From a virus: a stretch of DNA of 64,000 bases. Below, in pieces: positions 26,765 through 59,745 of the stretch. Positions within the stretch are counted from its first letter, which is position 1. Every line of letters begins with the position of its first letter. The translations under genes were made by a program, and so were the position numbers. A model generated the notes under the pieces. That model was given only the letters and a program-made list of their open reading frames with translations, was not told where the DNA came from and ran no database searches. The stretch lies in the IMG/VR virus record IMGVR_UViG_3300031787_013450, positions 1-64,000 of that record. One strand, given 5' to 3'.

Positions 26765-27372
26765 TAATAGATGACAAAACGTATAAATTAGATGTAAATA
26801 AATATGTCCCATTAGAAAGTGAAAAAAAACAAATTGTTTTAGGTAACACTTTTAATGATGGTATGAGACATGTTTTTGGTTGGGAAACACGTTATAATGG
26901 TAAATATAAAAAAACAGCTTCTTTTACCATAGATAAAAAGGGTAAAATTTATCAACATTTTGACCCAAAGTATTATTCAAGATATTTTAATAATCCAGAC
27001 CAAAACACTAAATCTGTCGTTATATTAATAGAAAATATTGGTTGGTTAACAAAAGATAATAAGAAAAATGAATACACAAATTGGTTTAATGAAAAATATT
27101 ATGGTAAAATTGATGGTATAATGGAAAAAAAATGGAGAGATTATGTTTATTGGGCACCATACAATGATGAACAATTAGAATCCGCAATAAAATTAGTTAG
27201 AACATTATGTAGTGACTTAAATATACCTAAATTAGTTGTTGCTCATAACACTAAAATAGATGACTTATATGACTTTGAAGGTGTGTTATATAAAAGTAAT
27301 ATTGAAAAACATTTTACAGATTTAAACCCTAATTGGAAATTTGATATATTTAAAGATAAAATAGAACTATGA
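26761..27372 (+). CDS. Putative endolysin, N-acetylmuramoyl-L-alanine amidase-like
   Basis: 203 residues. The layout fits an amidase_2/PGRP-like fold: MRHVFGWETRYN, TASFTIDKKGKIYQHFDP, SVVILIENIGW with a conserved Glu, an ESAIKLVRTLC helix, and LVVAHNTKIDD with the C-terminal His. These resemble the strands and Zn-binding positions of T7-lysozyme-like amidases, although the first Zn ligand is not clear-cut. It overlaps both neighbours by 4 bp in a lysis-like cluster with a membrane protein and a spanin-like protein. Confidence 0.6.
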   Translation: MIIDDKTYKLDVNKYVPLESEKKQIVLGNTFNDGMRHVFGWETRYNGKYKKTASFTIDKKGKIYQHFDPKYYSRYFNNPDQNTKSVVILIENIGWLTKDNKKNEYTNWFNEKYYGKIDGIMEKKWRDYVYWAPYNDEQLESAIKLVRTLCSDLNIPKLVVAHNTKIDDLYDFEGVLYKSNIEKHFTDLNPNWKFDIFKDKIEL

Positions 27373-27845
27373 AAGAAATTATAAATGAACATGACATGAC
27401 AAAAAAAATGATGAATGTCATAAGAAGTGGTTATAAAAAATTAATAAATGAGGTCGAAGAACCGATAACTGGTCCAGATATGAAACCAATACCTGACGAC
27501 CAAAAAGATACTATAGCACCAAAAGAAGGTGACCCATTATTTAAAGAAGAGTTAACCAAACTACAAAACACTATTGACCCAAGAGTTAAAATAACTAATT
27601 TCAAAATTTATGTTAAAGATAATGATGTGTTATTAGAAGGGTCTTTTTTAAATAAAAACTATGGTGAAAGTGGTATTAACTTTAAAATGTCTTTAGCTAG
27701 TGGTGAGATTGAAACAACAATGAAAAATGTTGAATTAACTAATGAAGTAAATACAATATTAACAAAATTAAAAGGCTATTATGATGTTTGGGCAAAAGAA
27801 TGGTCTTTAAAATTAACAAATGAATACAATGTCAATAGGCAATAA
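27369..27845 (+). CDS. Hypothetical protein with packaging-type N-terminus
   Basis: 158 residues. Residues 1-28 form an amphipathic helix ending KKLINE before VEEP, fitting the (L/I)xE pattern shared by many late genes in this window. A Pro-rich linker follows, then a compact domain (VKITNFKIYVKDNDVLLEGS). It overlaps the amidase stop and the spanin-like start, so it is translated with the lysis block. Function unknown; the shared leader suggests a particle-associated protein. Confidence 0.5.
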   Translation: MKEIINEHDMTKKMMNVIRSGYKKLINEVEEPITGPDMKPIPDDQKDTIAPKEGDPLFKEELTKLQNTIDPRVKITNFKIYVKDNDVLLEGSFLNKNYGESGINFKMSLASGEIETTMKNVELTNEVNTILTKLKGYYDVWAKEWSLKLTNEYNVNRQ

Positions 27846-28395
27846 AATATTAATAATATTAATTGGGTTGATAATGTTATTGTCAACATCTCTTTATTTT
27901 TTATATAATTTATATACTAATGAGAAAGAAGAGAGAAAAAGGTTTACAGAAAATGTAAATAGTTTGATTTTAGATAAATCTAGACAACAAGAATATACAG
28001 TAAATGAATTAAAAGCTTTATATCCTAGATTAGATAGTCTTGCTGAAAAGATAAACATTAAGACTAAGAATGTAACAAATATTGTTGAAACAACCTATAA
28101 TTATAAAGATACTACGATTAAATCAACAACACTTAAAGTCGATACTTTAAGAAAAAGATTAACTTTCGATTTCAATCAAAAATGTTATGGTTTTTCTGGA
28201 TTTATTAATAAAGATACAATATTTTTTGATAAAACCACTTTTAATGATACGTTAACAACATTTATATATAAAGATTGGGATAAAAAGTATTTCTTTAAAC
28301 TTATTAAACTTAAACCACATTATAGGGCTGCTGTATATAGCCAATGTATAGGAGATACAATAACTGTAACAAATAACATAAAAATAAAAAAATAA
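27820..28395 (+). CDS. Membrane-anchored spanin-like protein
   Basis: 191 residues. One N-terminal membrane helix (KILIILIGLIMLLSTSLYFL) is followed by a charged helical linker, then periplasmic beta repeats (NIVETTYNYKDTTIKSTTL). It ends in a basic tail. This is the usual build of inner-membrane spanin-like proteins in Bacteroidota phages. It overlaps the previous gene and ends at a strong terminator, closing the lysis-like operon. The spanin call rests on topology and context. Confidence 0.5.
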   Translation: MNTMSIGNKILIILIGLIMLLSTSLYFLYNLYTNEKEERKRFTENVNSLILDKSRQQEYTVNELKALYPRLDSLAEKINIKTKNVTNIVETTYNYKDTTIKSTTLKVDTLRKRLTFDFNQKCYGFSGFINKDTIFFDKTTFNDTLTTFIYKDWDKKYFFKLIKLKPHYRAAVYSQCIGDTITVTNNIKIKK

Positions 28396-28417
28396 ACCCA
28401 TTTATATGGGTTTTTTT
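28394..28417 (+). terminator. Rho-independent terminator
   Basis: AAACCCA, six-base loop, TGGGTTT followed by a run of T, directly at the end of the spanin-like gene. Confidence 0.85.
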
Positions 28418-28440
28418 ATTTATAAATTATATTTATTGTT
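28418..28440 (+). promoter_or_regulatory. Late-type promoter region
   Basis: Two overlapping elements, ATTTATAAATTA and TATATTTATTG, lie between the terminator and the next ATG (28455). They fit the late-type motif but not perfectly. An AAGTTATTTTAAC palindrome-like segment follows. Confidence 0.4.
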
Positions 28441-28454
28441 AAGTTATTTTAACA

Positions 28455-28706
28455 ATGGATAGAAATAAAATATTAATAAAAGAAGAGCTTAAAAAATCAG
28501 ATGTAACAAAAGAGCTAAAAAACTTTATTGACTCAAAGTCATTTGAATCAAAAATAGAGAAAATAATTAAAGACCGTTACAAAAATGATAAAGAGCTTGA
28601 GGATAAAATTGTTGACATTACAAAAAATGTTTTAACACAATTATATAAAACATTATGGATAAAAAGAGCAACTTGGATTAATAATTTAGACAATAAAACA
28701 AATTAA
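28455..28706 (+). CDS. Small helical protein with packaging-type N-terminus
   Basis: 83 residues, Lys/Glu/Asp-rich and helical. The N-terminus KILIKEELKKSD has the short basic-hydrophobic helix with IKE seen in other late genes here. The gene starts a late transcription unit with the ArdC-like gene two bases downstream. Small proteins of this type occur near head genes in other phages, but I cannot name the family. Confidence 0.5.
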   Translation: MDRNKILIKEELKKSDVTKELKNFIDSKSFESKIEKIIKDRYKNDKELEDKIVDITKNVLTQLYKTLWIKRATWINNLDNKTN

Positions 28707-28708
28707 AG

Positions 28709-31150
28709 ATGAAAAGAATAAAAATAACCAAAGAACAATATAATCTTATAAAAGAAAATTTGAATAAATCGCCTAAAGTAAAAGGTGGTGAAACAAGAGT
28801 TGATAAATTATTTAAAAAATATTTTAGTGAGGGTGAGATAGAACCTATAACGTATTCAAACACAATTAAACCAAAAAGAACAAATCCTAGTGTGTCAAAT
28901 ATAGATAAAGTCGGAAAACAAATAATGGAAAACGAGTCAAAGATTGATTACAAAAAATTGTCTGAAAATTTTCTTAATTATTTATATATTGATGAAATAA
29001 AAGAATTACAGAAAAATGGTAAAGCACAGCATATTAATGTTTCAGATATTGAGTTTCCTAGTATATTATCAGAAAAGAATTTAACTTTTGGTAGTGTTGT
29101 TAAATCTTTGGTTGAACAAAATGTTTTAGTATTTGATGTTGACGAAAATAAATACATTGTCAATAGAATCCATTCTACTAAAGATGATGCGCTTAAAAGT
29201 CTTGAAAACGGTTTTAAAGTTATATTAGAACCAAACGAAAAAGAATTTCCGCAGCTTTGGTATAGACTAGTAAAGAGTGCCAAAAAATCACGAAATTTAT
29301 ATGAGAATGCTGACTTCATTATGGAGATACATGAAGATGGTAGTTGTAAATTGAAATATAAAGATGATGGCCAAGAAAAATTAATTGATGAAAATGTATT
29401 AAATGAGTTAAAAAAAATATATGAAAAAGATAAACATTTAATGTCTATAATAGAATCTGAGTTTAGTGATGTATGGCAAAAATTTAAAGGTGATTTACAA
29501 AAAGCTAGGGGAATAGATTCAAATAAGAAAAAAACTAATAGAGAAGAATTATTAGCTAAGATAGCTGATATAAGAAAAAAAGAATTAGAAAAAAGAGAAA
29601 AAGAAGAAGAAGAAGAAGAAGAAGAAGAAGAAGATATAAATGAAATAACTACTGCTGGTTCTTCTGGACAATACACTGGATTATTTAGCAAACCGATAAC
29701 CAGACCAACAATAGCTGGTAAAATACCAGTAGTTTATGAAACAACACAAGGTACTGATAGTGTTGGTCCATATGATACAAATGCTTTAATAGGGATTAAC
29801 AGAGATGGCACTTTTAAACCAGTTAAAAAAACAAAAGCACAGAAAAAAACACAATATCCTGATGGCGGATTTGTAGAATTCAATGATTGTGTTAAACTTA
29901 ATAATAAACCAGCTGGTAGTGGTTGTAGTACTGGTGCTATTGATAATGTTGTTAAGATAAAGAAAACTAAAGGTAATATAATTTCACCATCTTTAAATGA
30001 GGCTTTAAAATTACAAATTAATAAAGAAAAAAATGAATTAATTGTAATATCTGATTTAGAAGGTAAAGCAGCTAGTCAAGAGACATTTACAAATAAAAAT
30101 ATTTTAAAACAAAATGGTTTTCAATGGAATGGTAGTAATTGGGTGATAAGTAAAGATAAAATGGATATTGCTAAAAAAACACTATCATTAGTAAATAAAG
30201 TTGAATATATTGTAGATAGTTTAGAAGAATTAGAAGAAGCGATTGATAATTCGGCTACTGATAAAAAATCATTATTAAAAAGCAAAATTGAAATGTATAT
30301 TAATGATTTAGCTAACGCTACAGATGAAAAAGCTTTATCTGCTGAAATAAGAAGATATTTAACATTTTTTTCTAAATTTCATAATTATAGTTTCTATAAT
30401 AGAATGTTAATTTTTATACAAAATCCAAATGCAACACGTGTAGCATCATATAAAAAATGGCAAGAAAAAAATAGACAAGTTAAAAAGGGTGCTAAAAGTA
30501 TTTTTATTTTAGCACCAATAATAACAAAGACAAAAGATTCAGATGAAGAAATTGGTGATGAATTGGGTTTCAAAAAAGATGTTAGCGGATTTAGAGCAGT
30601 ACCTGTATTTGATATTGCCGATACTGAAGCCACAAGTCCAGAAGGTGAAATACCAGAAACGCCACAATGGTGGGGAGATAACACACCATCAGAAACAGCT
30701 GATGAATTATTTGAATATGTTAAAGATATAGCTAATAATATGGGAATTAAAGTAACATCTTCAGATTCTAAAAGTGGTGAGAAAGGTTATTCGGCAGGTG
30801 ACCATATTAATTTAACTTCTAGCGTAACTGGTGTTGCTAGATTATCAACAATGATACATGAAATAGCACATGAATTAATGCATTGGAAAAAATCATCAAT
30901 ATATTATATTGATAATGGTGAAGGTAAAGAAAAAAATGAATTGGTTGAATTACAAGCTGAAAGTGTATCTTATGTTGTATTAAAACATTATGATTTACCA
31001 GTTAAACATCATTCAACTTATTTGGCACTTTGGAAAGCTAATAAAGAAAAAATTCAAAATAATTTAGAAATTATATCTAAAGTTTCTGAATTCATAATAA
31101 ATATGATTGATAAAGAAGCTGAACAGGCTAAAAAAAATAAAATAAATTAA
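28709..31150 (+). CDS. ArdC-like antirestriction protein with HExxH metallopeptidase
   Basis: 813 residues. The N-terminus ITKEQYNLIKE carries the packaging-type pattern. Residues to about 300 are helical and end in a poly-Glu tract. A middle linker has a small domain near 440-500 (FTNKNILKQNGFQWNGSNWV). An ArdC-type ssDNA-binding domain follows from about 540 (FHNYSFYNRMLIFIQNPNAT, RVASYKKWQEKNRQVKKGAK), then a zinc peptidase with IHEIAHELMHWKK near residue 716. ArdC proteins counter restriction and can travel with incoming DNA. The long N-terminal extension and leader are unusual and suggest a virion-carried version. Confidence 0.7.
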   Translation: MKRIKITKEQYNLIKENLNKSPKVKGGETRVDKLFKKYFSEGEIEPITYSNTIKPKRTNPSVSNIDKVGKQIMENESKIDYKKLSENFLNYLYIDEIKELQKNGKAQHINVSDIEFPSILSEKNLTFGSVVKSLVEQNVLVFDVDENKYIVNRIHSTKDDALKSLENGFKVILEPNEKEFPQLWYRLVKSAKKSRNLYENADFIMEIHEDGSCKLKYKDDGQEKLIDENVLNELKKIYEKDKHLMSIIESEFSDVWQKFKGDLQKARGIDSNKKKTNREELLAKIADIRKKELEKREKEEEEEEEEEEDINEITTAGSSGQYTGLFSKPITRPTIAGKIPVVYETTQGTDSVGPYDTNALIGINRDGTFKPVKKTKAQKKTQYPDGGFVEFNDCVKLNNKPAGSGCSTGAIDNVVKIKKTKGNIISPSLNEALKLQINKEKNELIVISDLEGKAASQETFTNKNILKQNGFQWNGSNWVISKDKMDIAKKTLSLVNKVEYIVDSLEELEEAIDNSATDKKSLLKSKIEMYINDLANATDEKALSAEIRRYLTFFSKFHNYSFYNRMLIFIQNPNATRVASYKKWQEKNRQVKKGAKSIFILAPIITKTKDSDEEIGDELGFKKDVSGFRAVPVFDIADTEATSPEGEIPETPQWWGDNTPSETADELFEYVKDIANNMGIKVTSSDSKSGEKGYSAGDHINLTSSVTGVARLSTMIHEIAHELMHWKKSSIYYIDNGEGKEKNELVELQAESVSYVVLKHYDLPVKHHSTYLALWKANKEKIQNNLEIISKVSEFIINMIDKEAEQAKKNKIN
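29600..29634 (+). repeat. (GAA)n microsatellite inside the ArdC-like gene
   Basis: About eleven GAA/AAG triplets in a row encode a poly-Glu stretch between the N-terminal helical part and the linker. Slippage here would change only the number of Glu residues. Confidence 0.8.
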
Positions 31151-31168: not shown

Positions 31169-31183
31169 ATATTTATTAATAAA
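31169..31183 (+). promoter_or_regulatory. Late-type promoter motif ATATTTATTAATAAA
   Basis: Matches TATTTATnnATAA; the next ATG is at 31190, seven bases downstream. No TAnnTTTG box is near. Confidence 0.5.
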
Positions 31184-31189: not shown

Positions 31190-33301
31190 ATGGGTAATAA
31201 AAACAAAATACAACAAAAATTACATAGTTTATTCATATCTGAAGATGCCACACCAGCCATTTCTATGAATAATTCTATAAGAAATCAAAATAATAAGATA
31301 AATAAAAAAGGGTTATCTGATACTAGTAAAGAATTAACTAACTATGAAAAAGGTTTAGGTAAAGAAGAAGCTGGTGGTGATAAAATACCTGTAAATAAAT
31401 TTAATTACACAAATGAAGATGAAGTTGAATACCATAATGAAATTGAAATAAGAAATGGTATGGAGATGTTAGAATATGATAGAGAACCAAGCGAAGGATT
31501 TAAAAAAAGAAATAAAGAAGCAATCGAAGGTTCTACTAGAATGGGTAACAAAGGTGGTAAAGAAGTAGGTAATGCTCAAGAAACATTTGGTGCATCTTCA
31601 GATGATTTTGGTAAAAATTTTAATAGAATATCAAAATCATCTTTTGATAAAAGAATAAAAGCTGAAAAAGGTATTTATAGTTTTGGTGACGATGTTGAAA
31701 GTACAACAGAATCTAATAAAGGTAATAAAACTATTGTTAAACATTCAATGTTTGAAAATAAAGAGAATAATAATAAATTAACAGAAAACAATAAAATGAA
31801 AAGACTTAAGTTTAAAAAAGAATTTAATGGTTTAGGTAATGCTTTAAAATTAATACCAGAATCATATAAAACTAATAATAAAGTATTTGAAATGACTGAT
31901 GGTAATGAAAGTTACAGAATCAGATGGGAAGGTTCAAATAATGGTAAACCAGTTGTATTAGTAGCTTCAGATAAAAATTTAGTTAATGAAGATATCACAA
32001 GAATGAAACAACTTTTTGGTTATAAATCACAAGATACTTTAGGTATTGTTAAAGGTAATGAAAGAATTAATGAGAATAAAGTATTTGGTAGTATTTTAGA
32101 TAAAACAAAAAAACTATTAAGTGAAGGTTCTGATATGGAAGGTGTTAAAGCAACAGAAGGTAATTGGGATGAAGTTACTAAAAAAGCACCTGAAGCAACA
32201 AAACACATTCATGGTTCTGTTAGCAAAGACACCCCAATAGCAAAGGCAACAGCTGGTAATCCAGATAAAGCTAAAAAACAAGCACCTGAAGCTAAAAAAC
32301 CACTTAAAAGTTCTTCTGGTAAAAATATAGAATCACAAGCTGACTATAATGAAGGTAATTTTGACGAAGTTACTAAAAAAGCACCTGAAGCAACAAAACA
32401 TATTAACTCAGGTAAAACAAAAATGTCTGCTGTTAAAAAAGAAACAACAGAGATGCCAAAGAATAAAGTAAAACAAGCACCTGAAGCTAAAAAACATATT
32501 AAAGAATCTGATTATATGTCAACAGAAGGTCGTATGAATCTTGATGAACTTGATTATATGGATGAAAACATGTACGAAGGTATGTACGAAGATATGCACG
32601 AAGATATGTACGAAGGTATGTATGAAGGTATGGATGAAGGTATATACGAAGATATGGACGGTGATATTGATGAAAACATATATGAAATTGAAGTTAGTGA
32701 GAGTAATTACCCTCCAGGCGCTGAGTATGACCCTAGAGCACCTTGGAACCAAGACGAAGATGAAGATGAAGATGACGAATGGTGGAATGCTATGACAAGA
32801 GGTGATGAAAAAAGAAAAGCGGATTTAGAAGACAGAGAAGATGAAGAAGATGTAGAAGATGTAGAAGATAATTATAGCTATTCTGACGAAGAGAACAGAT
32901 TTTACCGTGAAGAGGATTTAGATGACATTGTTTATGAAGTAACATTAGATGATGAAGAAGAAGATGAAGAAGAAGATGAAACTGATACTGAAGAGGAAAC
33001 AGAAGATGAGGAATTAGAAATAGAAGATAAACCAGAAATAGAAGATGATTCTATGATAGAATTAGAACCATCTGATGTTGATTTAAACAAAGAAAAATCA
33101 CCAGAAAATTTTATAGGTGATTCTAATAAGGCGATGTTATTAAGAAACGCTGACAATCCTAGTGAATATATCGTAAAAAAAGGAAATACGATGTATTCAG
33201 TACCTAGCCAGTTTTTAGACAGGTATGCTACTTCTAAAAATAGGGCTGAAAGAATATTTACAGCGATTGAAGATTCGCAAGAAGATTCAGGATTAGATTA
33301 A
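31190..33301 (+). CDS. Highly acidic, repeat-containing protein with packaging-type N-terminus
   Basis: 703 residues. The leader KIQQKLHSLFISE ends in ISE before DATP, as in other putative particle proteins here. A Lys/Asn-rich region precedes a globular piece near 215-270 (FEMTDGNESYRIRWEG). Three to four copies of a DEVTKKAPEATKHI-like unit lie near 325-430. Eight four-residue MYEG/MYED-type units follow from about residue 461. The C-terminal 180 residues are almost entirely Asp/Glu. Strong acidity plus the leader suggest a scaffold-like or DNA-mimicking head protein; this is inference. A strong terminator follows. Confidence 0.55.
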   Translation: MGNKNKIQQKLHSLFISEDATPAISMNNSIRNQNNKINKKGLSDTSKELTNYEKGLGKEEAGGDKIPVNKFNYTNEDEVEYHNEIEIRNGMEMLEYDREPSEGFKKRNKEAIEGSTRMGNKGGKEVGNAQETFGASSDDFGKNFNRISKSSFDKRIKAEKGIYSFGDDVESTTESNKGNKTIVKHSMFENKENNNKLTENNKMKRLKFKKEFNGLGNALKLIPESYKTNNKVFEMTDGNESYRIRWEGSNNGKPVVLVASDKNLVNEDITRMKQLFGYKSQDTLGIVKGNERINENKVFGSILDKTKKLLSEGSDMEGVKATEGNWDEVTKKAPEATKHIHGSVSKDTPIAKATAGNPDKAKKQAPEAKKPLKSSSGKNIESQADYNEGNFDEVTKKAPEATKHINSGKTKMSAVKKETTEMPKNKVKQAPEAKKHIKESDYMSTEGRMNLDELDYMDENMYEGMYEDMHEDMYEGMYEGMDEGIYEDMDGDIDENIYEIEVSESNYPPGAEYDPRAPWNQDEDEDEDDEWWNAMTRGDEKRKADLEDREDEEDVEDVEDNYSYSDEENRFYREEDLDDIVYEVTLDDEEEDEEEDETDTEEETEDEELEIEDKPEIEDDSMIELEPSDVDLNKEKSPENFIGDSNKAMLLRNADNPSEYIVKKGNTMYSVPSQFLDRYATSKNRAERIFTAIEDSQEDSGLD
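32570..32665 (+). repeat. 12-bp in-frame tandem repeat (8 units)
   Basis: Eight imperfect units of ATGTACGAAGGT encode MYEG, MYED, MHED, MYEG, MYEG, MDEG, IYED and MDGD. The unit length keeps the frame, so copy number can change without breaking the protein. Confidence 0.8.
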
Positions 33302-35490: not shown

Positions 35491-35526
35491 TAAATATTTA
35501 TTTAAATAAATAAATAAATAAATCAT

Positions 35527-36060
35527 ATGGACAACAAAATTATAATAACTAAACTATTAAAAGAAGAAATAAATAAAATAGTTAATTGCTCAAGCTGTGG
35601 TTGGTCTTGGAATACAGTAGACTCTGATGAACATGATAAATATGTTTGCCATAAATGTGGTCATGATAATTCTAATAATTATTCAACAAAACCAAATGTT
35701 GCCGCTGGAGTACTTATTAAATGTTTATCAACTGATAGAATATTCTTATTATTAAGAAATGATAAAAAACCAACTTGGTCATGTGTTGCTGGACATATAG
35801 AAAAAAATGAAGATATTTTAGAAGGGTTAAAGAGAGAAATAAAAGAAGAAATCTCAATAAACCCTGATATAATTGATTTTAAAAAAATAAATGTGGTTAA
35901 AAATGATGATGGGGTTACATTTCATTATTATGAAGGTTTTACTGAAGATGAATTTAAAGCTAAATTAGATGATGAAAATCTAAAATGTGGATGGTTCTCA
36001 AAAAAAAGAATACCGTTACCTTTATACCGTGATATGAAAGAAAAAATAATTAAAATATGA
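35527..36060 (+). CDS. NUDIX hydrolase with N-terminal zinc ribbon
   Basis: 177 residues. The first 15 residues (KIIITKLLKEEI) carry the packaging-type LLKE pattern. A zinc ribbon follows, CSSCGWSWN then YVCHKCGHDN, and then a NUDIX domain. Its box runs from GHIEKNED to REIKEEISI, matching Gx5Ex7REUxEExxU. NUDIX enzymes hydrolyse nucleoside diphosphate derivatives such as dNTPs, NAD or RNA caps; the substrate cannot be told here. With ADP-ribosyltransferase-like proteins in the same phage, an ADP-ribose or NAD-linked role is conceivable. Confidence 0.75.
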   Translation: MDNKIIITKLLKEEINKIVNCSSCGWSWNTVDSDEHDKYVCHKCGHDNSNNYSTKPNVAAGVLIKCLSTDRIFLLLRNDKKPTWSCVAGHIEKNEDILEGLKREIKEEISINPDIIDFKKINVVKNDDGVTFHYYEGFTEDEFKAKLDDENLKCGWFSKKRIPLPLYRDMKEKIIKI

Positions 36061-36278
36061 ATAATAAAGACTTATTAGTAAGAGAGCTTAAAAAACTTGA
36101 AAAAGAAGCAAAAAATGACGAGTATTTGACTTCTTTAAAAAAACAACAATTCATTAACGAATTAAAAAATGGTTTAGGTGATGAAATGAAAAAAAATTTA
36201 ACAACCATAAAAATAATAAAAAAACCATGGTACGTTAAATTAAAAGAATCAATTAAAAATTTTTTCAAAACAATTTAA
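36057..36278 (+). CDS. Small basic helical protein with packaging-type N-terminus
   Basis: 73 residues, overlapping the NUDIX stop by 4 bp. The opening NNKDLLVRELKKLEKEA has the shared leader pattern, and the rest is basic and helical, ending KESIKNFFKTI. It is translated with the NUDIX gene. Function unknown; a DNA-associated head peptide is one option. Confidence 0.5.
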   Translation: MNNKDLLVRELKKLEKEAKNDEYLTSLKKQQFINELKNGLGDEMKKNLTTIKIIKKPWYVKLKESIKNFFKTI

Positions 36279-44946: not shown

Positions 44947-44949
44947 CTA

Positions 44950-46436: not shown

Positions 46437-46538
46437 AGTTAGGTGGCGGAATTGGTAGACGCACGCATGGCTCGGCAGTATCGTGAAAAGAGCCTGTAAT
46501 TAAGATACTGCGTACAGGTTCGAATCCTGTCCTAACAA
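46437..46538 (+). ncRNA. tRNA-like element 1 with aberrant anticodon region
   Basis: Acceptor strands AGTTAGG and CCTAACA pair except at the first position. The D-arm TGGCGGAATTGGTAGACGC is typical of tRNA-Leu, and the T-arm ACAGG-TTCGAAT-CCTGT is perfect. The anticodon region is enlarged to about 50 nt and contains GGCTC/GAGCC crossing GCAGTATC/GATACTGC, a pseudoknot arrangement. No normal 5-bp anticodon stem with a 7-nt loop can be formed. Confidence 0.6.
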
Positions 46539-46669: not shown

Positions 46670-46747
46670 AGTCAGGTGGCGGAATTGGTTGCCAAGATAG
46701 CGGACTCTAAGGAGCGTCTATTACAGGTTCGAATCCTGTCCTGATTA
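46670..46747 (+). ncRNA. tRNA-like element 2 with aberrant anticodon region
   Basis: Acceptor AGTCAGG/CCTGATT pairs fully (one G-U), discriminator A. The D-arm can be read as TGGC-GGAATTGGTT-GCCA. T-arm ACAGG-TTCGAAT-CCTGT is identical to that of element 1. Between the arms are 28 nt from which no canonical anticodon arm forms; ATAG/CTAT around a 17-nt loop is the best helix. Confidence 0.6.
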
Positions 46748-48424: not shown

Positions 48425-48437
48425 TATATATTTATTA
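48425..48437 (+). promoter_or_regulatory. Late-type promoter motif TATATATTTATTA
   Basis: TATTTAT core at 48429-48435; the ATG at 48441 follows after 5 bases, so the start site would lie at or inside the start codon region. Confidence 0.4.
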
Positions 48438-48440: not shown

Positions 48441-50006
48441 ATGAAAAACTATATTAAATTCAAATTAAGAAACTTATTAAACGAAACGGAATTTAATTAC
48501 CATAAAGGTGATATAGAAAATGTAGAAAATATAAGACCATATGGTTCAGATAATTTATTTCGTATGCAAGGTCGTGGAACTGGGCATTTTGGTTCTGGTC
48601 TTTATTTTTCTACTTATAGTTGTGAAAATTTTGATGATTCCGATAACTCAAAAAAAGAATTAACTAAAATAAAAGATAATATTTATCGTGTTGATTTTGA
48701 TATTTATAAAAATTTATTTAGGGTTAAATCACCAGACCATGCTGAAATGTTATTTAAAACATTAAAACTAATAAATGAAAGTTTTTATTTAGTTGTTAGA
48801 GTTTATGATAGCAAATTTGAAATGGATAACAAATTCAAAATTATTTATTTAAAAATAATAAATAATGCACAATACCTAGGTTTAAATATTCCAAAATATC
48901 GTGAATATATAAATATGGTTAAAGAAGCCGCAAATGACATGAAGAACAAAACCAATTTAGCATCCATGTCAACAAGAATAATGGAGTACAATGGTTTTAA
49001 TGGTGTTAATGTTAGCGGTATAGATGGGTATGATAATACATTACACGGGTCTGTTATATATGATTTATCTAAACTATCGTCTAATCCAGTAGAAGTTAAA
49101 AACCCAGAACTATTTTGTAAAATAAAACGTGATGTGATAACTAATTTCCCAAATATGCGTTCAGATGCTTTAGCTGGTGATAAATTAAGTATTGATTTTT
49201 TTAATAAATTAAAAAATAATGAAAAAATAATTTATATAAAAAATTTTGAATATTATTTTGAACCTTATCAATTAGATGAGTTAGATGAAAACTTAAAAAA
49301 AGTTTATTATAATTCATTACCAATTAAATTTAAGAATGGTTTATTAGAAAAATTACCACATTATAAAATGGTTAAAAAAATGATTGATGATGGTTATATT
49401 AAATTAATTTATGATGAAAACATTAAAGTAAATGATGTAACTATATTAGAAGATATTTTAGAAGATTTTTGGAAGTATGATGAAAAACATCAAGAATTGA
49501 TTTTAAAAAACATAAATAGACCATTAAATGATGAAGAAGAACGTTTATTAAATAACGTGAAAGAAGATGATGAATATAAACAATTTTTTACCGAAAACGA
49601 AAATAAATTAAATACTTCATCTGAAATAAGAATTAAATATGATATTAACTTACCAAAGGACATAATAGATATTAAAGATATTTTTGTTAAGAATGGTTAT
49701 GATTTATATCTTGTTGGTGGTTCAGTAAGGGATGTTTTACTAAATAAAGAACCAAAAGATTATGATTTAGCAACAAATGCTAAACCAGATGATATTGAAA
49801 ACATATTACAAGAAAACGGTTATAAAACAATAGCAACAGGAAAAGCATTTGGTGTCATTAATGTTATAACAGATAGTGATGAATATGAAATAGCCACATT
49901 CAGAATAGACCAATATAAAGGTTATGATTTAGAAGGGTTTAAAGATTATTTAAAACGTTTAAATAATGGTAGTTACGAAAAATTTTTAACTAAATTAATG
50001 AAATAG
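48441..50006 (+). CDS. ADP-ribosyltransferase-like domain fused to N-terminal part of a CCA-adding enzyme
   Basis: 521 residues. The leader IKFKLRNLLNE (residues 5-15) fits the shared (L/I)xE pattern. Residues 15-230 look like an ADP-ribosyltransferase fold (FNYHKGD, GHFGSGLYFST, IMEYNGFNGVNVSG). After a helical middle part, residues about 400-490 are a class II tRNA nucleotidyltransferase head: LYLVGGSVRDVLLNKEPKDY, DLATNAKPDD, GKAFGVINV and YEIATFRIDQ. The frame then ends in TAG before the RRPD motif, which reappears in the gene at 50764. The enzyme is therefore split by the GIY-YIG gene between them. Confidence 0.7.
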   Translation: MKNYIKFKLRNLLNETEFNYHKGDIENVENIRPYGSDNLFRMQGRGTGHFGSGLYFSTYSCENFDDSDNSKKELTKIKDNIYRVDFDIYKNLFRVKSPDHAEMLFKTLKLINESFYLVVRVYDSKFEMDNKFKIIYLKIINNAQYLGLNIPKYREYINMVKEAANDMKNKTNLASMSTRIMEYNGFNGVNVSGIDGYDNTLHGSVIYDLSKLSSNPVEVKNPELFCKIKRDVITNFPNMRSDALAGDKLSIDFFNKLKNNEKIIYIKNFEYYFEPYQLDELDENLKKVYYNSLPIKFKNGLLEKLPHYKMVKKMIDDGYIKLIYDENIKVNDVTILEDILEDFWKYDEKHQELILKNINRPLNDEEERLLNNVKEDDEYKQFFTENENKLNTSSEIRIKYDINLPKDIIDIKDIFVKNGYDLYLVGGSVRDVLLNKEPKDYDLATNAKPDDIENILQENGYKTIATGKAFGVINVITDSDEYEIATFRIDQYKGYDLEGFKDYLKRLNNGSYEKFLTKLMK

Positions 50007-50050
50007 CGACTTTTAGATTAATCCATGATATTTATAATAAAAAGAATGTC

Positions 50051-50758: not shown

Positions 50759-50763
50759 TTAAA

Positions 50764-51657
50764 ATGGAAAATTGGGAACAAATAGCTAAAGAATTCTTTA
50801 AAAAAGAATTTGAAGATTATGAAAAAACTTTAGCTGATAAAAGAAGACCAGATTCAGTCGAATTCACAGATATATATCAAGATGTGCTAAGAAGAGATAT
50901 AACAATAAATGCTTTATTTTACGATATTAAAAATAAAGAAATTGTTGACCTTGTTGGTGGTATTGAAGATATAAAAAATGGTGTGATTAGAACCGTTGGT
51001 AAACCAGAAGATAGATTCAATGAAGATAGACTTAGGATTTTAAGAGTTCTAAGATTCTCAGCCAGATTAGATAGTGATATAGACCAACAAACAGATGAAG
51101 CATTACAAAAAGATGCTAGTTTAGAAGGTATATCTGCTGAGAGAGTAAAAGATGAATTTATTAAAGGAATTAAATCAGCTAAAAATGTTTCTTTCTTTCT
51201 ATCTTTAATAGATAGATATAATTTATTTGATTGGATTTTTCCTAAACTTAATATTAATAAGAATTTCAAAAACTTAACAGATGATTATATCATAACAATA
51301 TCAACTTTATTAAAATTAAATAACCCTAAAAACATTGGTAACAAATTAAATGAATTAAGATACACTATTGATGAGATAAGAAACATTCAATTTTTACTTA
51401 GTTTTTTAAATATAAGTATTGATACAGCCGTAGCATTAAAAAAGATGCAAAAAAATATAACATTGAATGATGAACAAATAAAAAAATTCGGTCAAATAAA
51501 TAATTTAGATAAAAAGTTAGTTGATGCTTTTATAGATTTTGAATTGTCTGTTAATTCACAAGAAGTAATGGATAAATTTAATCTTAAACCTAGTCAAGAA
51601 CTTGGTAATAAAATAACATCGTTAGAAACAGATAACTTTAAAAAAACAATTAAATAA
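50764..51657 (+). CDS. C-terminal part of the split CCA-adding enzyme
   Basis: About 297 residues from ATG 50764 (an alternative ATG at 50743 overlaps the endonuclease). It starts inside the catalytic head: DKRRPDSVEFTDIYQDVLRR and DITINALFYDIKNKEIVDLV, then the neck with DIKNGVIRTVGKPEDRFNED and LRILRVLRFSARL, then the tail domain. These motifs directly continue the upstream frame (FRIDQ). It carries the RRxDxTIN motif needed for nucleotide choice but lacks the DxD catalytic residues, so it cannot work alone. Confidence 0.78.
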   Translation: MENWEQIAKEFFKKEFEDYEKTLADKRRPDSVEFTDIYQDVLRRDITINALFYDIKNKEIVDLVGGIEDIKNGVIRTVGKPEDRFNEDRLRILRVLRFSARLDSDIDQQTDEALQKDASLEGISAERVKDEFIKGIKSAKNVSFFLSLIDRYNLFDWIFPKLNINKNFKNLTDDYIITISTLLKLNNPKNIGNKLNELRYTIDEIRNIQFLLSFLNISIDTAVALKKMQKNITLNDEQIKKFGQINNLDKKLVDAFIDFELSVNSQEVMDKFNLKPSQELGNKITSLETDNFKKTIK

Positions 51658-52685: not shown

Positions 52686-52702
52686 AAATATTTATATATA
52701 AA
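52686..52702 (+). promoter_or_regulatory. Late-type promoter motif AATATTTATATATAAAT
   Basis: Fits TATTTATnnATAA with an extra TA; next ATG at 52712. Confidence 0.45.
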
Positions 52703-52711: not shown

Positions 52712-53215
52712 ATGAACCAACTAATAACAATTAAAAAAATGTTAACGAATTATCTTAACGAATCAATAGAGGATTACTCAAAATGGAAACGTAATAATGT
52801 CACCTACAGAGGGATTAAAGAATTTGGGAAACCAAATGAAGTTTATGGTTCGCTTGGTAATGGATTATATACAGTACCTTTGAGTAATAAAGCAATGGCA
52901 AAACAATATGGTGACTTATATTATGTTGTTAATGCTAAACCAACAAAACCAAAAATAGTTAATGGATTAAATAACGCTGAATTACTAATTCAAAATTTAA
53001 TCGATAATTTCTGTAAAGAAAATGGACAGGGCTATAGTAGAAGTTTTTTTGAACAAAATACAACTATCGAAAAAGAAATGTTAAAGTTAGGTTATAACGG
53101 TATAATAATAAAAGGTAGAGAAATGGTTAACTATGAACCAATAAACATTAAATATTTTAAAACTGAAAAGGAATTATTAAATTATTACGATTCAATTAAA
53201 AACATAGAAAGTTAA
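52712..53215 (+). CDS. ADP-ribosyltransferase-like protein with packaging-type N-terminus
   Basis: 167 residues. The leader ITIKKMLTNYLNE (ending at residue 17) is followed by a small ART-like fold. The signs are VTYRGIKEFG (the R-G strand), SLGNGLYTVPLSNKAMAKQY (the STS-like region with a loading helix), LYYVVNAKPTKP, and LGYNGIIIKGREMVNYEPIN near the end. These four blocks recur in order in the ART-like regions at 48441 and 57077. ART enzymes transfer ADP-ribose from NAD to protein or nucleic acid, as T4 Alt does to host RNA polymerase. The catalytic Glu is not certain. Confidence 0.65.
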   Translation: MNQLITIKKMLTNYLNESIEDYSKWKRNNVTYRGIKEFGKPNEVYGSLGNGLYTVPLSNKAMAKQYGDLYYVVNAKPTKPKIVNGLNNAELLIQNLIDNFCKENGQGYSRSFFEQNTTIEKEMLKLGYNGIIIKGREMVNYEPINIKYFKTEKELLNYYDSIKNIES

Positions 53216-53219: not shown

Positions 53220-53678
53220 ATGAATAACAAAGAATTCATAATTGGCAAGTTAAAGGAAAGTGAGTTTGCGAAACTTTTCACTAATGTAACACCATCATCT
53301 AGAGAAGATGATATGTATTTACATTTTGATTTAACAATAAGTGCCAAGATAGATGTTAAATCAATGAAAAAAGGGGCTAGATATGACCCTAGATATAATG
53401 AAAATTTTCATTGGGTTGAACTTAAAAATGTTAGAGGTGAGAAATCATGGTTATTTGGTGAGGCTGATTATTTTGCGTTTGAAACTGAAGATTATTGGAT
53501 AATAGTCGAAAAAGAAAAGTTACAACATTTCATAGACGAAAAAATTAAAGGTAAAGAAATTGGTAGTAATAAAGACCCATATGAGTTATATAGACGCACT
53601 AATAGAAAAGATGTTATAACTAGAGTTAAAACAATAGATTTAATTTATCTTTCATTAACTTTGATAAAAAAAGAATAA
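53220..53678 (+). CDS. PD-(D/E)XK-like nuclease candidate with packaging-type N-terminus
   Basis: 152 residues, 4 bp after the ART-like gene. KEFIIGKLKESEF fits the shared leader. The body shows DLTISAKIDVKSMKKG, HWVELKNVRGEKSWLFGEAD, YFAFETEDYWIIVEKEKL: an acidic strand followed by (E)LK and a beta strand, compatible with a restriction-endonuclease fold. The assignment is tentative. Co-transcribed with the ART-like gene, so both may belong to one effector set. Confidence 0.5.
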   Translation: MNNKEFIIGKLKESEFAKLFTNVTPSSREDDMYLHFDLTISAKIDVKSMKKGARYDPRYNENFHWVELKNVRGEKSWLFGEADYFAFETEDYWIIVEKEKLQHFIDEKIKGKEIGSNKDPYELYRRTNRKDVITRVKTIDLIYLSLTLIKKE

Positions 53679-56395: not shown

Positions 56396-56406
56396 AGATA
56401 TTTATT
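56396..56406 (+). promoter_or_regulatory. Late-type promoter motif AGATATTTATT
   Basis: TATTTAT core 4-6 bases upstream of the ATG at 56410; downstream half of the consensus is not conserved. Confidence 0.35.
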
Positions 56407-56409: not shown

Positions 56410-57072
56410 ATGGAAACAAAAATAATAATTAAAACATTATTAAGAGAAAGTTTATTGGATGAAGATTATCCAGAAAGTTTTAATATGGATAAATTTAAAT
56501 CCCTAACAACTTTTAAAGATAGGGTTAATTATTGTAGTGAACATTTAAAAAGGATATCTAGTGGCACTAGTAGAATCGTATATAAAATTGATGATGAAAA
56601 GGTTTTGAAATTAGCCAGAAATAAAAAGGGGTTAGCACAAAATGAAGTTGAGGTTGATTATTCTAAGGAATATGTTATTGAAAGCATTTTAGCTAAAGTT
56701 TTTGATTATCATGAAGATTATTTATGGGTTGAGATGGAATTAGCTAGACCAGTAACTGAAAAAATATTTAAACAAGTTAATGGATATAGTTTCGGATTAT
56801 ATTCATTAGCAATAAATAATTATTATTACGGTAGTTTAAAACCAAATAATAGAAATGTTAGACATATAGATGGTTTAGAACAAGCTATTCAAGATTTATG
56901 GGAAGATGAATTCGCTTATGATATTTTTCAATATTTAGGTAATTTTAACGTACCTGTTGGGGATTTAATGAAATTGTCTTCTTATGGTTTAGTTAAAAGA
57001 AATGGTCAAGATACTATTGTTTTAATTGATTATGGTCTTGACCATGATACGCTAGAAAAATATTATAGTTAA
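56410..57072 (+). CDS. Protein kinase-like protein with packaging-type N-terminus
   Basis: 220 residues. The leader KIIIKTLLRE is followed by SLLDE, both (L/I)xE-like. The kinase-like N-lobe has ISSGTSRIVYKIDDEKVLKL (Gly-rich loop, then the VLKLA Lys strand), and YVIESILAKVFDYHEDYLWV and EMELARP form the hinge. A C-terminal IVLIDYGLD resembles the DFG position. A classical HRD loop is missing or shortened, so activity is uncertain. The gene opens a late unit continued by the triple ART-like protein. Confidence 0.6.
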   Translation: METKIIIKTLLRESLLDEDYPESFNMDKFKSLTTFKDRVNYCSEHLKRISSGTSRIVYKIDDEKVLKLARNKKGLAQNEVEVDYSKEYVIESILAKVFDYHEDYLWVEMELARPVTEKIFKQVNGYSFGLYSLAINNYYYGSLKPNNRNVRHIDGLEQAIQDLWEDEFAYDIFQYLGNFNVPVGDLMKLSSYGLVKRNGQDTIVLIDYGLDHDTLEKYYS

Positions 57073-57076
57073 CTTT

Positions 57077-58663
57077 ATGAATAAAACATATATTAAAGAA
57101 TCATTAAGGAAATATTTGAACACTAATATATTATTAGAAGGTTGGTTTCATGGTACTTATGATTCTAGAGAAATAGAAAAAGAAGGTGGTTTTACTAATA
57201 AAACTATTAGAGTAGAATATGTTAATAACCCTAAAGCTCTTGATAAATTACAAGAAAAAATGAATAAAGCTAAAATTTCAGGTGATGAAGAATTATATTT
57301 TAGTTTATTAAATAAAGTTTCTAATTTTAAAGATTATTATTCGTATAACAAACCATTATTCATAACTGACAAATATTCTGTTGCTAAAACATATGCTGAT
57401 GCTAAAAGAGCTTTTGATTATCAAAACGCTATTGAAAAAGTGTATGAAGTTGATGTTGATTGTGATAAAATAGTTAAGATAATAGCAATTGGTGATAGAT
57501 TTAGTTATATTAGTTTAGATAAAGTTAAAAATGGTTTTATTAATGCTGGTATATCTGAAGAAAGAATTGATGAATTAATATCAATGTTTAATTATTATTA
57601 TAATGATAAAGGAATTAAAACAGATGTTATAGGAGCAATAGGGAACATTTTAAATTTTGATTGTATAGATGTTATTGGTGTTTTGGATTCATATCATGGT
57701 GGTACTATTAAATCAACAGTTAGAATGGTTTTAGACCCATCAAAAGTCAAAATAAAAACAAAACAAAATTTAAATGAAAACATAATTTTAACTGAAGAAT
57801 TAAAAACATTATATCACGGTAATAAATCTGGTTATAAATTAGATAACATAACTTTTGATAATAACAATTATTTTTATTTAACACCAATTTTTAGATATGC
57901 GTTAATGTATGCTAAAGGAAATGAAGATGGCGTTACAGGATTAAAGATAGATACATCTAAATTATTAGATTTAAGGTCACTAGGTACAAATAAAATTGAT
58001 AGTAAAACATTCTATAAAGAGACAAAACAATATTTTCCATCAAAACTTTTAACTAAGAATCAAAATAATTCTTTATGGGAATTAATTAGATTAGATTTTG
58101 ATGGTGATATTAAAAAAACTTTTCAAAGTAGAGGATATGATGGTTTAATAATAATTGAACAAAAAGATGGTGAAAAATTTGAATCATATGTCTTATTTAA
58201 TAGCAATCCAATTATTGATATATTAAACACAAATATTTTTGGTCATAGATTAGATGTGTTATTAGATATTATTGGTGACAAAGTAGATAACCCAAAAAAA
58301 TTCATAAAAGATAAAATATATGATTTGAAAACAATTCAAAAACAATCATCAATAATATTGTATAGGGTTGTTTATATAAAAAACCCAGATAAGTTAAATA
58401 AGAATAATTTTGGACATCATTATGTCTTAAGTACAGAAGATTTTCATGAAGAAATGTTAGATTATTTATACCAAAATGCGAGAAAGCTAGATAAAAATTT
58501 GGAAGAAGATGATGTTTATTTGATAGAAGTTGAAACACCAACATCAAATATAGATTATTATGAGACTATGAGAACATTTGTTTTGCATCCTTGGGAAAAT
58601 GAAATAACAATTAAAGATGATACGAAGGTTAAATTAAAAAACATTACTAATTTTTTTGGTTAA
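57077..58663 (+). CDS. Protein with three ADP-ribosyltransferase-like regions
   Basis: 528 residues. The leader YIKESLRKYLNTNILLE ends before GWF. Region 1 (from about residue 24): GWFHGTYDSREIEKEGGF, PLFITDKYSVAKTYADAKRA, VYEVDVDCDKIV. Region 2 (from about 235): TLYHGNKSGYKLDNITF, YFYLTPIFRYALMYAKGN, SRGYDGLIII. Region 3 (from about 415): SIILYRVVYIKNP, GHHYVLSTEDF, VYLIEVETPTSNIDYY, HPWENEITI. Each has the R/H-G strand, a hydrophobic (S/T)xx block and a late acidic strand in ART order. Three such units in one phage protein is unusual. Targets are unknown. Confidence 0.62.
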   Translation: MNKTYIKESLRKYLNTNILLEGWFHGTYDSREIEKEGGFTNKTIRVEYVNNPKALDKLQEKMNKAKISGDEELYFSLLNKVSNFKDYYSYNKPLFITDKYSVAKTYADAKRAFDYQNAIEKVYEVDVDCDKIVKIIAIGDRFSYISLDKVKNGFINAGISEERIDELISMFNYYYNDKGIKTDVIGAIGNILNFDCIDVIGVLDSYHGGTIKSTVRMVLDPSKVKIKTKQNLNENIILTEELKTLYHGNKSGYKLDNITFDNNNYFYLTPIFRYALMYAKGNEDGVTGLKIDTSKLLDLRSLGTNKIDSKTFYKETKQYFPSKLLTKNQNNSLWELIRLDFDGDIKKTFQSRGYDGLIIIEQKDGEKFESYVLFNSNPIIDILNTNIFGHRLDVLLDIIGDKVDNPKKFIKDKIYDLKTIQKQSSIILYRVVYIKNPDKLNKNNFGHHYVLSTEDFHEEMLDYLYQNARKLDKNLEEDDVYLIEVETPTSNIDYYETMRTFVLHPWENEITIKDDTKVKLKNITNFFG

Positions 58664-58674
58664 TTTTAATTCTG

Positions 58675-58690
58675 AATATCTATATATAAA
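58675..58690 (+). promoter_or_regulatory. Late-type promoter-like motif AATATCTATATATAAA
   Basis: A variant of the late-type element before the ATG at 58698. Confidence 0.35.
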
Positions 58691-58697
58691 ATAAAAG

Positions 58698-59183
58698 ATG
58701 AAAGATTTTAAACAAGTGATTAAAACTAAGATACGAGAATTTATTGAACAACAAGAGTTTAATGAAGGCATATTTGATAGATTTAAAAGGAATGAAATTT
58801 TTAAACAAAAACCTAATATTTGGACACATGCTACCTCTTCTGATGAATTAATAAATCATTTAAAAAGTGGTGGTGACTTTATAGGTGAAAAAGAAGATTT
58901 AAGTAAGTTTAATATAGAAAAGATAGGTCCTTTTGCTACATTTGTTAATCAACATTCACCAAACTTTAAAAAGGGGTCAATATTTCACGGATTTGAACAA
59001 CATCCATATTTGATTACAACCGAATTACCAGATAGTGCTTTCCAACCAAATTGGAATCGTAAAAATTATGATAACTTGAATGATAGTTCAAATGTTGGTG
59101 TTTTGAAACCAGAATATCGTGATTCTAAAAATTTCAAGTTGTGGAAAAGAAATAATAAAGGTGAATTTGAATTAATAAAATAA
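58698..59183 (+). CDS. ART-like or related effector with packaging-type N-terminus
   Basis: 161 residues. The leader FKQVIKTKIREFIEQQEFNE is followed by GIFD, an (L/F)NE-type site. The body has NIWTHATSSDELINHLKSGG, GPFATFVNQHSPNFKKGSIF, HGFEQHPYLITTELPDSAFQ. The W-x-H-A-T opening and the ITTELP strand recall the neighbouring ART-like proteins, but conservation is weaker and catalytic residues are not evident. It has its own late-like motif. Alternative: a phage structural effector of another fold. Confidence 0.5.
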   Translation: MKDFKQVIKTKIREFIEQQEFNEGIFDRFKRNEIFKQKPNIWTHATSSDELINHLKSGGDFIGEKEDLSKFNIEKIGPFATFVNQHSPNFKKGSIFHGFEQHPYLITTELPDSAFQPNWNRKNYDNLNDSSNVGVLKPEYRDSKNFKLWKRNNKGEFELIK

Positions 59184-59201
59184 AAGTGCGTTGGATTTTA
59201 G

Positions 59202-59225
59202 TTTTTAACTATTTATATATAAAGA
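59202..59225 (+). promoter_or_regulatory. Late-type promoter motif within 59207-59225
   Basis: AACTATTTATATATAAAG fits the late-type consensus with the upstream TTTTTAAC shared with the 33347 element. ATG at 59233. Confidence 0.45.
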
Positions 59226-59232
59226 TAAAACT

Positions 59233-59745
59233 ATGAGTAAAGAAATGAGAAGATTGATAGATACATTCAAAAGGTTTAATTTGAATGAGAGTCGTAAGAA
59301 TCTAAAATTAGATATTTTAAAAGATAGAGAAGAACTTATAGATATATTCAAATGGATTTCATATGATGATTATAACGGAGAAAATCCTAATTTTCAATTA
59401 CAAGGCACACCAAACAACATTATACTTCATTTTCAAAGATTTTTTGGTGAGAACCAATTCGAAATTAAAGAGTGGTTGATAAGTGGTGTTAATTATGTTA
59501 TGGAGGTTTATGGATATAAATATGGAAATTCAAAACCAGTTAGCATTTCATATGAATTAGATAATCCTAATTATGATGAACTTGCTGATTTATTACATGA
59601 TGAAGAAGGTGTTATTGCTGGTGGTAAATCACCTAAAAATTCAAATAAAAAGATAATAGAATCCAAAACCTTTGATAAAATTGAAGATGTTTTAGGATTA
59701 AAAGTAAATACCTTATCTATAAGAATATCAAAAGTGGGTGGGTAA
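59233..59745 (+). CDS. Hypothetical protein with packaging-type N-terminus
   Basis: 170 residues. The leader MRRLIDTFKRFNLNE ends in LNE before SRKN. The body is alpha/beta (FQLQGTPNNIILHFQRFFGE; IKEWLISGVNYVMEVYGYKY; LSIRISKVGG). Unrecognised. It ends 14 bp before dispersed repeat C. Confidence 0.5.
   Translation: MSKEMRRLIDTFKRFNLNESRKNLKLDILKDREELIDIFKWISYDDYNGENPNFQLQGTPNNIILHFQRFFGENQFEIKEWLISGVNYVMEVYGYKYGNSKPVSISYELDNPNYDELADLLHDEEGVIAGGKSPKNSNKKIIESKTFDKIEDVLGLKVNTLSIRISKVGG

Follow-up and report, generated by a model that had tools for sequence, protein, structure and literature searches.

N-terminal leaders ending in (L/I)xE as a putative capsid targeting tag on unrelated proteins of an uncultured T4-like phage

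Results

Leader proteins of the window

We looked at IMG/VR virus record IMGVR_UViG_3300031787_013450, of 92,490 bases, the first 64 kb of which (64,000 nucleotides) form the window, i.e., the whole stretch that was analysed; the remainder of the record was read as stretches (L001, L002). The subject is a group of unrelated proteins that begin with a short basic-hydrophobic leader ending in (L/I)xE, the motif after which the prohead protease gp21 of phage T4 cuts. A simple longest-open reading frame (ORF) rule called 134 genes in the 92-kb record. The initial annotation had listed 13 leader starts in the window. ORFs are present at all of them, the four leaders that it quoted are exact, and 12 of the 13 do carry a basic-hydrophobic N-terminal stretch ending in (L/I)xE, the exception being 36057. 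Leader lengths are 10-28 residues. The genes, named below by their start positions, are the following, with an arrow after the site:

27369..27845, + strand: leader protein of 158 residues; leader about 27369-27452, ...KKLINE↓V
28455..28706, + strand: leader protein of 83 residues; leader 28455-28484, MDRNKILIKE↓
28709..31150, + strand: leader protein of 813 residues with ArdC-N; type B leader 28709-28756, MKRIKITKEQYNLIKE↓, ending in LIKE
31190..33301, + strand: leader protein of 703 residues with an acidic tail; leader 31190-31243, ...HSLFISE↓
35527..36060, + strand: 177 residues, leader, zinc-ribbon-like stretch and NUDIX; leader 35527-35565, MDNKIIITKLLKE↓, ending in LLKE
36057..36278, + strand: ORF of the earlier list, no leader protein, without (L/I)xE at the leader position
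48441..50006, + strand: leader protein of 521 residues; leader 48441-48485, MKNYIKFKLRNLLNE↓, ending in LLNE
52712..53215, + strand: leader protein of 167 residues; leader 52712-52762, ...LTNYLNE↓; ATATTTAT upstream
53220..53678, + strand: leader protein of 152 residues; leader 53220-53258, MNNKEFIIGKLKE↓, ending in KLKE; matrix score 10.9
56410..57072, + strand: 220 residues, leader and kinase-like domain; leader 56410-56448, LLRE↓
57077..58663, + strand: leader protein of 528 residues; leader 57077-57139, ...NTNILLE↓; comes after 56410
58698..59183, + strand: leader protein of 161 residues; leader 58698-58739, MKDFKQVIKTKIRE↓, ending in KIRE; matrix score 13.7
59233..59745, + strand: leader protein of 170 residues; leader 59233-59289, ...KRFNLNE↓; matrix score 8.2
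59995..60921, + strand: AAA_33 protein of 308 residues; short degenerate leader 59995-60018, MKIRNILE↓

The gene at 53220 lies directly 3' of 52712, and 56410 has a second site after LLDE, ending at 56463. Leaders beyond the earlier list were found in the record at 66381-66956 (L001:2481) and 89536-89907 (L002:11136), together with the degenerate one on 59995, three relatives of which carry full leaders (...ILRE↓). The ORF at 36057 was rejected as a leader protein: its first 30 residues hold no (L/I)xE, the start ending in KLEKE, and the site is found at the leader position in 0/5 aligned rows of its family, its own included (three more homologs were left unaligned).

In total, 26 of the 134 genes of the record pass a loose leader rule vs 4.6% of internal windows. 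The initial annotation had proposed a motif search over the N-termini of the full phage genome. When the genes of the record were scored by a matrix built from 54 leader 9-mers of relatives, 12/134 reached at least 7 (2.5 expected), eight at least 10 (1.1 expected), and five at least 12, which no internal window reaches. The independence of this matrix is only partial because sequences of this window had partly seeded the matrix used to choose the training leaders. At the threshold of 10, one of 96 genes was found in crAss001 (a Bacteroides phage), 0/74 in a 49-kb stretch of T4 and 4/194 in the Flavobacterium phage immuto, vs 8/133 own genes in this comparison. Two relatives' records gave 11/179 (G020) and 17/231 (G018), the own leaders of both being in the training set. 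When the loci found earlier were searched with the matrix, 82 N-terminal matches in 46 clusters were obtained, at least two clusters (11 and 9 members) being false; the tail-region cluster MEVIKRKILLE and the cluster ...LPKE were rejected as leaders.

Conservation of the site in relatives

Relatives were found via the structural protein encoded at 12843-14984, and 80 of 85 loci were kept, from records of up to 380 kb. This protein gave no match by tblastn against 50,697 named phage records. A scan of genome contigs with it gave no relative either, so that contigs provide no evidence on the host. Among the ortholog rows of seven leader families, 37 of 43 retain the (L/I)xE end and 41 at least its E. 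By family, the site is found in 4/5 rows for 27369 (E in 5/5, L or I at -2 in four), 5/6 for 28455 (L130 being a row without leader), 5/5 for 28709, all with the type B leader, 5/6 for 31190 (E in 6/6, L or I at -2 in five; L113:6846, which starts inside the body, was dropped), 10/11 for 56410 and 4/4 for 59995. For 35527, it is found in 4/6 rows, L138 reading LFRE and failing the rule; here L141 (a copy of L124), L166 and L170 (near-copies of L138) and L164 (57 residues) were dropped. The site of 48441 is kept in 3/3 rows, with leader homologs in L027 and L055. Among the relatives, no ortholog was found for 52712, 53220, 58698 and 59233, and 57077 gave C-terminal matches only.

The 56410 family was looked at more closely as regards its leaders. 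Its relatives occur in 14 loci, which leave 11 distinct rows without the own copy (L229) and near-copies (L232, L233, L236); L171 was also dropped. The bodies align well from YPxSFN on. The leaders before them are of type A (METKIIIKTLLRE, MKDNIKKLLSE), type B (MKIIISEQQYNLIKKDLDE, MKNKKLIINENQYNFLINE) or another kind (MKLSPILESVLSE). The residue preceding the conserved body (E18 in 56410) is E in 11/11 rows, and position -2 is L or I in ten and V in L235. In this family, the site at the domain border persists even though the leader type varies.

Two tag types across viral contigs

DNA encoding the type A tag MKxFIKxLLRE, with F for L and S for R allowed, was searched in 2.9 million viral contigs. 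We obtained 52 stretches with 56 instances in 43 distinct proteins, which fall into 18 clusters without BLAST similarity past the tag. A scrambled control gave no match and a terminal E to D control gave three, both at equal degeneracy; an L to V control at -2, with half the codons at that position, gave one. Of the D-control matches, two read ...LFSD with a hydrophobic stretch right after it and the third is 27 residues long, while the sole V-control match may be a true variant since it reads MKEFIKHLVRE↓SLGGLISE. The terminal E and the -2 L of the tag are specific. Codons differ at the conserved tag residues, indicating that selection acts on the peptide. Five of 20 tagged representatives lie above the Pfam cut-off (NUDIX, GP88, ART-PolyVal, DUF4116 and SprT-like), the other 15 having sub-threshold matches or none.

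Type B is the leader with which 28709 starts, and relatives begin alike and end in (L/I)xE (5/5 rows). A search with the pattern ITESxLxxIVKxV gave 48 stretches. They hold 51 instances, of which 43 are no more than 15 residues away from the first ATG. In all, the instances represent 35 distinct proteins in 23 clusters; in six of the 35 the motif lies elsewhere, and a few near-N-terminal matches look unrelated, e.g., MLNILTEYPWAITE. As judged from these sequences, a second tag type exists. The two types could mark different places in the prohead or different doses.

Prohead protease and capsid in relatives

Peptidase_S77 (PF03420, the gp21 family) was found in 10 of 25 family records, which were taken from the 80 loci and are mostly the largest. 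It was also found in 14 of 20 large leader-bearing records drawn from the 100 loci of the type A and type B pattern searches (7/8 for type A and 7/12 for type B); many of the records searched are fragments. A Gp23 match is present in 13 of the 25 family records, being short and partial in G007 and G012. The gp23 precursor reads ...SSLLTE↓STTAGSSGSFETVVF or near, with (L/I)xE at one column in 9/9 rows (one unrelated row was dropped). A core protein near the portal begins MQNFGKIKNxFNxxLxE↓ or near, with (L/I)xE in 7/8 rows and M in L092. In L091 and L092, gp23 has leader genes less than 3 kb away. The leader end thus fits the site expected for the gp23 propeptide on sequence comparison.

According to the initial annotation, the protease gene is absent from the window and a gp21-like one was to be sought in the rest of the genome. 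The first point stands: no S77 match was found in the longer contig G001, which shows 100% identity to the record in the two segments compared (22.1 and 7.1 kb), spans it from 2.8 kb onwards and adds about 25 kb, still an incomplete part of the genome. Beyond the window, such a protease was found in relatives' records. A search of the own record for an S78 protease gave no match.

Some small ORFs of relatives (133-225 residues) match only about positions 139-206 of the Gp23 model and others only about 4-48, for example G020:16074-16226, G008:226610-226774 and G007:121592-121738. Immuto was the top-listed capsid match among named phages (38% identity over 58% of the query), with which a Bacteroidetes host fits. 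The TAnnTTTG elements described below also agree with such a host, and the T4-like jumbo phages of this group are probably Bacteroidetes phages. In PMC7198788, far-T4 viruses with marine Bacteroidetes as hosts are described. Leader-like starts are seen in immuto at L173:6269, L173:10712 and L173:18322, reading MKKSQLRQIIKE↓A, ...SFLTE↓NK and ...AKFLKE↓ST; the last gene directly follows the prohead protease gene.

An upstream element common to leader and virion genes

The element ATATTTAT, a putative late promoter element, was found at the following positions:

28429..28436, + strand: ATATTTAT, putative late promoter element of 28455
31169..31176, + strand: ATATTTAT of 31190
35494..35501, + strand: ATATTTAT of 35527
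48428..48435, + strand: ATATTTAT of 48441
52688..52695, + strand: ATATTTAT of 52712
56398..56405, + strand: ATATTTAT of 56410
12809..12816, + strand: ATATTTAT before the structural gene 12843-14984

It precedes eight of 15 own leader genes (the 13 of the earlier list, 36057 included, plus two) vs 10 of 119 other genes (p 8e-5). In relatives, it precedes 22/50 leader genes vs 242/1365 others (p 2e-5). Seven own leader genes are without an exact copy. Four of them (28709, 36057, 53220 and 57077) directly follow another leader gene, near-matches are found before 58698 (ATATCTAT) and 59233 (CTATTTAT), and 27369 is without any. Within 60 bases upstream, the element was found for the protease gene in 8/8 cases, the core protein in 7/8 and the 12843 family in 48/55; the 8366 and 11369 families have it in 24/62 and 18/41. 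A second, early-type element, TAnnTTTG, precedes one of 50 leader genes in relatives vs 163/1365 others (p 0.02). For leaders found by pattern, ATATTTAT lies before 20/39 and TAnnTTTG before 0/39. The T4 late promoter TATAAATA was rejected as the shared element, being rare before structural genes. Three sigma-70-like genes were recognized by eye, at 24628-25467 and 47519-48406 of the window and at L002:10196-11092; one of them may read the late ATATTTAT element.

Nature of the tagged proteins

The labels given to these proteins in the initial annotation (ADP-ribosyltransferase (ART)-like, kinase-like, ArdC-like, NUDIX and nuclease-like) fared unequally. Family models were found for 28709 (ArdC-N), 35527 (NUDIX), 48441 (nucleotidyltransferase head) and 59995 (AAA_33, E 2.3e-10). 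In 28709, ArdC-N lies at 550-617 (Pfam ArdcN E 1.7e-10; phrog_7245 anti-restriction E 3.2e-19), beside a sub-threshold match to M78 peptidase. The NUDIX match of 35527 has E 2.7e-12, and its relatives carry leaders such as MKAFIKQLLRE↓. The ArdC-N and NUDIX labels are thus borne out, kinase is likely, ART is unconfirmed and nuclease-like is not supported. No Pfam ART match was obtained for 48441, 52712, 57077 and 58698, and neither 52712 nor 57077 matched any family in the Pfam search. The protein 48441 joins an N-terminal part, with an ART-like motif seen by eye, to the head portion of a CCA-like nucleotidyltransferase (PolyA_pol E 4.1e-20 at 422-493). For this N-terminal part, the AlphaFold2 (AF2) model reached a predicted local distance difference test score (pLDDT) of 42 only, and a search of PDB sequences with its alignment gave no E below 0.03. 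A tagged relative in L144 matches ART-PolyVal at E 6.6e-11. A PADLOC scan of nine proteins gave no family. For 31190, 27369 and 28455, a head-core role seems likelier than that of an effector: 31190, with its acidic tail, is likely scaffold- or core-like, and 27369, for which no Pfam or PHROG match was found, is possibly a head-core protein.

The AF2 model of 56410 has a mean pLDDT of 81.7, with a leader helix at residues 2-14 (below 50), a linker and a domain from about residue 22. Foldseek gave a best E of 2.9e-5 with template modelling (TM) scores below 0.5, the PDB matches including APH(2''), PRPK, HIPK2 and Mps1. VIA gave Z up to 8.2 (root mean square deviation 4.3 over 137 aligned residues), 50 of the 50 rows shown being kinases or aminoglycoside phosphotransferases. 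The best viral structure match (TM 0.81) is without named function. By profile, the effector kinase SteC was matched (E 8.5e-4); the window protein itself gave no Pfam match. A kinase-like fold is therefore likely, as predicted from these models. Among 28 records of named phages matching at E <= 1, four kinase homologs were examined. XacN1 ORF170 reads MKQVRLSQFLSE↓APLPDDW (ending FLSE↓A) and that of Alishewanella phage Slickus MKIDNLYSTLLE↓APLPDDW (ending TLLE↓A). Mass spectra of XacN1 virions are deposited (PXD008065), according to PMC5852040; the main text of the XacN1 paper does not mention ORF170.

Other features of the region were observed. A CCA-adding-like nucleotidyltransferase is split at 49572-51651 of the window, positions 4-120 of its homolog in L156 (393 residues) lying in 48441 and positions 104-390 in 50743. 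A GIY-YIG-like ORF (by eye, 50051-50758) sits between the halves, which suggests a homing-endonuclease insertion or an intron; the split region gave no Rfam intron match at E <= 0.1. A tmRNA lies at 44594-44949 (Rfam RF00023, 48.5 bits for a gathering threshold of 47, E 7e-17), which ARAGORN missed, and weak tRNA matches at 46437-46538 and 46670-46747. Several short genes with HGYWE-type, MORN-like motifs (by eye), at L002:1068-1462 and in L101 and L102, close the part of the genome that was read, and their DNA is repeated from one to another.

Discussion

The initial annotation had proposed that the leader is a portable tag for packaging, which a gp21-type protease removes by cutting after (L/I)xE, and five lines support this. 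The relatives have an S77 protease and a gp23 with the same site; the tag is found on many unrelated proteins, with a specific terminal E and -2 L; one conserved domain is preceded by leaders of different types that retain the site; an upstream element is common to the leader genes, the protease gene and some of the tail and core genes; and the N-termini of T4 gp24 and Alt show such ends. We consider it probable from these comparisons that tag, cut and packaging together make up a widely used T4-type capsid targeting system. Late in infection, the tagged proteins would be made from ATATTTAT-type promoters alongside virion proteins. Their basic amphipathic N-terminal helix would dock them into the prohead scaffold, where the gp21-type protease (Peptidase_S77) would cut after (L/I)xE, as expected for the gp23 precursor. 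The mature enzymes would stay inside the capsid and be delivered together with the DNA into the next host cell. There, ArdC-type, NUDIX, kinase-like and other domains could act ahead of any phage gene expression. Docking, cleavage, packaging, injection and action in the host are steps that we infer, injection as effectors going one step beyond tag, cut and packaging. Some tagged proteins (31190, 27369 and 28455) would more likely be part of the head core.

Several observations weigh against this proposal. Neither an S77 nor a Gp23 match was found in G001, and so the phage's own protease was not found there. An S77 protease and (L/I)xE sites belong to T4-like heads in any case; the presence of S77 alone is therefore no proof of leader cutting, and the S77 counts stand without a base rate from random large viral contigs. 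The element ATATTTAT was found before gp23 in 0/10 cases, gp22 in 1/9, the portal gene in 1/8, the 5690 family in 0/37 and the 15017 family in 0/56; virion genes without it may be read through from upstream. At own leader genes, TAnnTTTG is not depleted (2/15 vs 23/119, p 0.74). Six of the 43 ortholog rows are without (L/I)xE, as are two of the four cultured kinase homologs, RaK2 ORF356 and RM378 p120, which have no leader. Under the loose rule, LIxxE is enriched 4.07-fold in the own genome vs 4.22-fold for (L/I)xE, because many leaders read LLxE, and other hydrophobic N-terminal motifs are also enriched in relatives, less strongly. At least four of the 12 genes scoring 7 or more look false (L002:7344, the tail-region gene 3883, 42307 and L001:10773); L002:7344-7841, which we take by eye to resemble a phage-encoded translation initiation factor IF-3, was rejected as a leader gene. 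Finally, no virion proteomics for this phage family was found in the literature.

The best surviving alternative, which we regard as rather unlikely, is that these are true capsid targeting sequences, most tagged proteins serving head assembly or remaining in the capsid and few being injected effectors. The scaffold-like acidic tail of 31190, the colinear homologs that 27369, 28455, 28709 and 31190 have in L106 and L130, and the same kind of leader on the core protein at L092:9413 are in accordance with it. It is opposed by several tagged enzymes with no evident part in assembly (ArdC, NUDIX, kinase-like, ART-PolyVal and SprT-like). It is improbable that the helix, with the E as part of its signal, targets proteins elsewhere (membrane, nucleoid or replication compartment) or aids folding without any protease. 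Basic amphipathic N-terminal helices can indeed bind membranes, and the predicted helix of 56410 is separate from its domain, but the strict terminal E with L or I at -2 equals the gp23 propeptide site, that site stays at the domain border as the helix type changes, and the upstream element is common to the leader genes and the protease gene. Chance together with AT-rich coding bias, K/I/L/E-rich N-termini being common in such genomes, is hardly credible: it could account for the general enrichment of hydrophobic-x-E motifs at relatives' N-termini and for false positives such as the IF-3-like gene, but not for the 0 vs 52 matches of the scrambled and true patterns, nor for the gap between crAss001 or T4 and the own genome at the matrix threshold of 10.

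The packaging tag resembles several known systems. In T4, the targeting sequences of IPI-III and Alt and the propeptide of gp24, cut by gp21, are likewise short N-terminal peptides ending in (L/I)xE, one kind of tag on unrelated proteins, with an S77 protease and a gp23-type capsid, as found here in the relatives. In the T4 record, gp24 starts MAKINELLRE↓STTT, close to MKxFIKxLLRE↓ here, and Alt starts MELITE↓LFDE, with arrows placed after (L/I)xE in this analysis; MELITE is the only such site within the first 90 residues of Alt. For IPIII, PMC9026906 reports that the first 10 residues suffice for packaging, that residues 8 and 10 matter for processing, and that Asp at 10 blocks processing and not targeting, with which the outcome of our E to D control fits. 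By comparison with gp24, Alt and IPIII, the tag belongs to a known class of signals, of which it represents a sequence variant. Unlike in T4, it is more basic, has at least two types and is carried by many more families, including ArdC, NUDIX, kinase-like, ART-PolyVal and SprT-like proteins. Similarly, Dar proteins of P1, which defend against restriction, are loaded into the head by an N-terminal signal (DarB residues 1-30), and this signal also sends a reporter into the head (PMC9024508). Ejection proteins of phiKZ and SPN3US, which have an S80-type protease, carry propeptides cut C-terminal to E, and gp53 and gp54 share an identical N-terminus, MANFVKSKLARESVE (PMC5694885). They differ in their A-x-E or S-x-E motif, in several propeptides of more than 100 residues and in a protease that is no more than a distant relative of gp21. 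Phages and conjugative elements also encode polyvalent proteins, for whose ArdC-N, metallopeptidase, ART and kinase domains co-delivery with DNA is proposed (PMC5512222, in the part available, where no such tag is named). The proteins here are mostly short, with a common, presumably detachable tag, possible several-domain chains being 28709 (ArdC-N and sub-threshold M78) and 48441 (unconfirmed ART-like and PolyA_pol).

No earlier description of this tag was found in the literature searched, which leaves preprints and most subscription papers outside its scope, and the available part of the RsoM2USA paper holds nothing on such tags. What is new here is the reach of the tag, its second type and the interchange of types. 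We suggest, as a tentative extension, a general delivery code in which at least two interchangeable N-terminal tags load dozens of unrelated enzymes into the head; with such a code, sequence alone could reveal the injected effector repertoire of uncultured phages. If the packaging tag is real, a short motif together with a prohead protease would suffice to list the proteins that an uncultured phage injects at the onset of infection, the step where restriction and other host defences must be met. The head contents of giant phages would become a sequence search with a clear test, unknown families would be flagged as candidate anti-defence or takeover proteins, and new packaging tags would be at hand for the delivery of proteins by phage heads.

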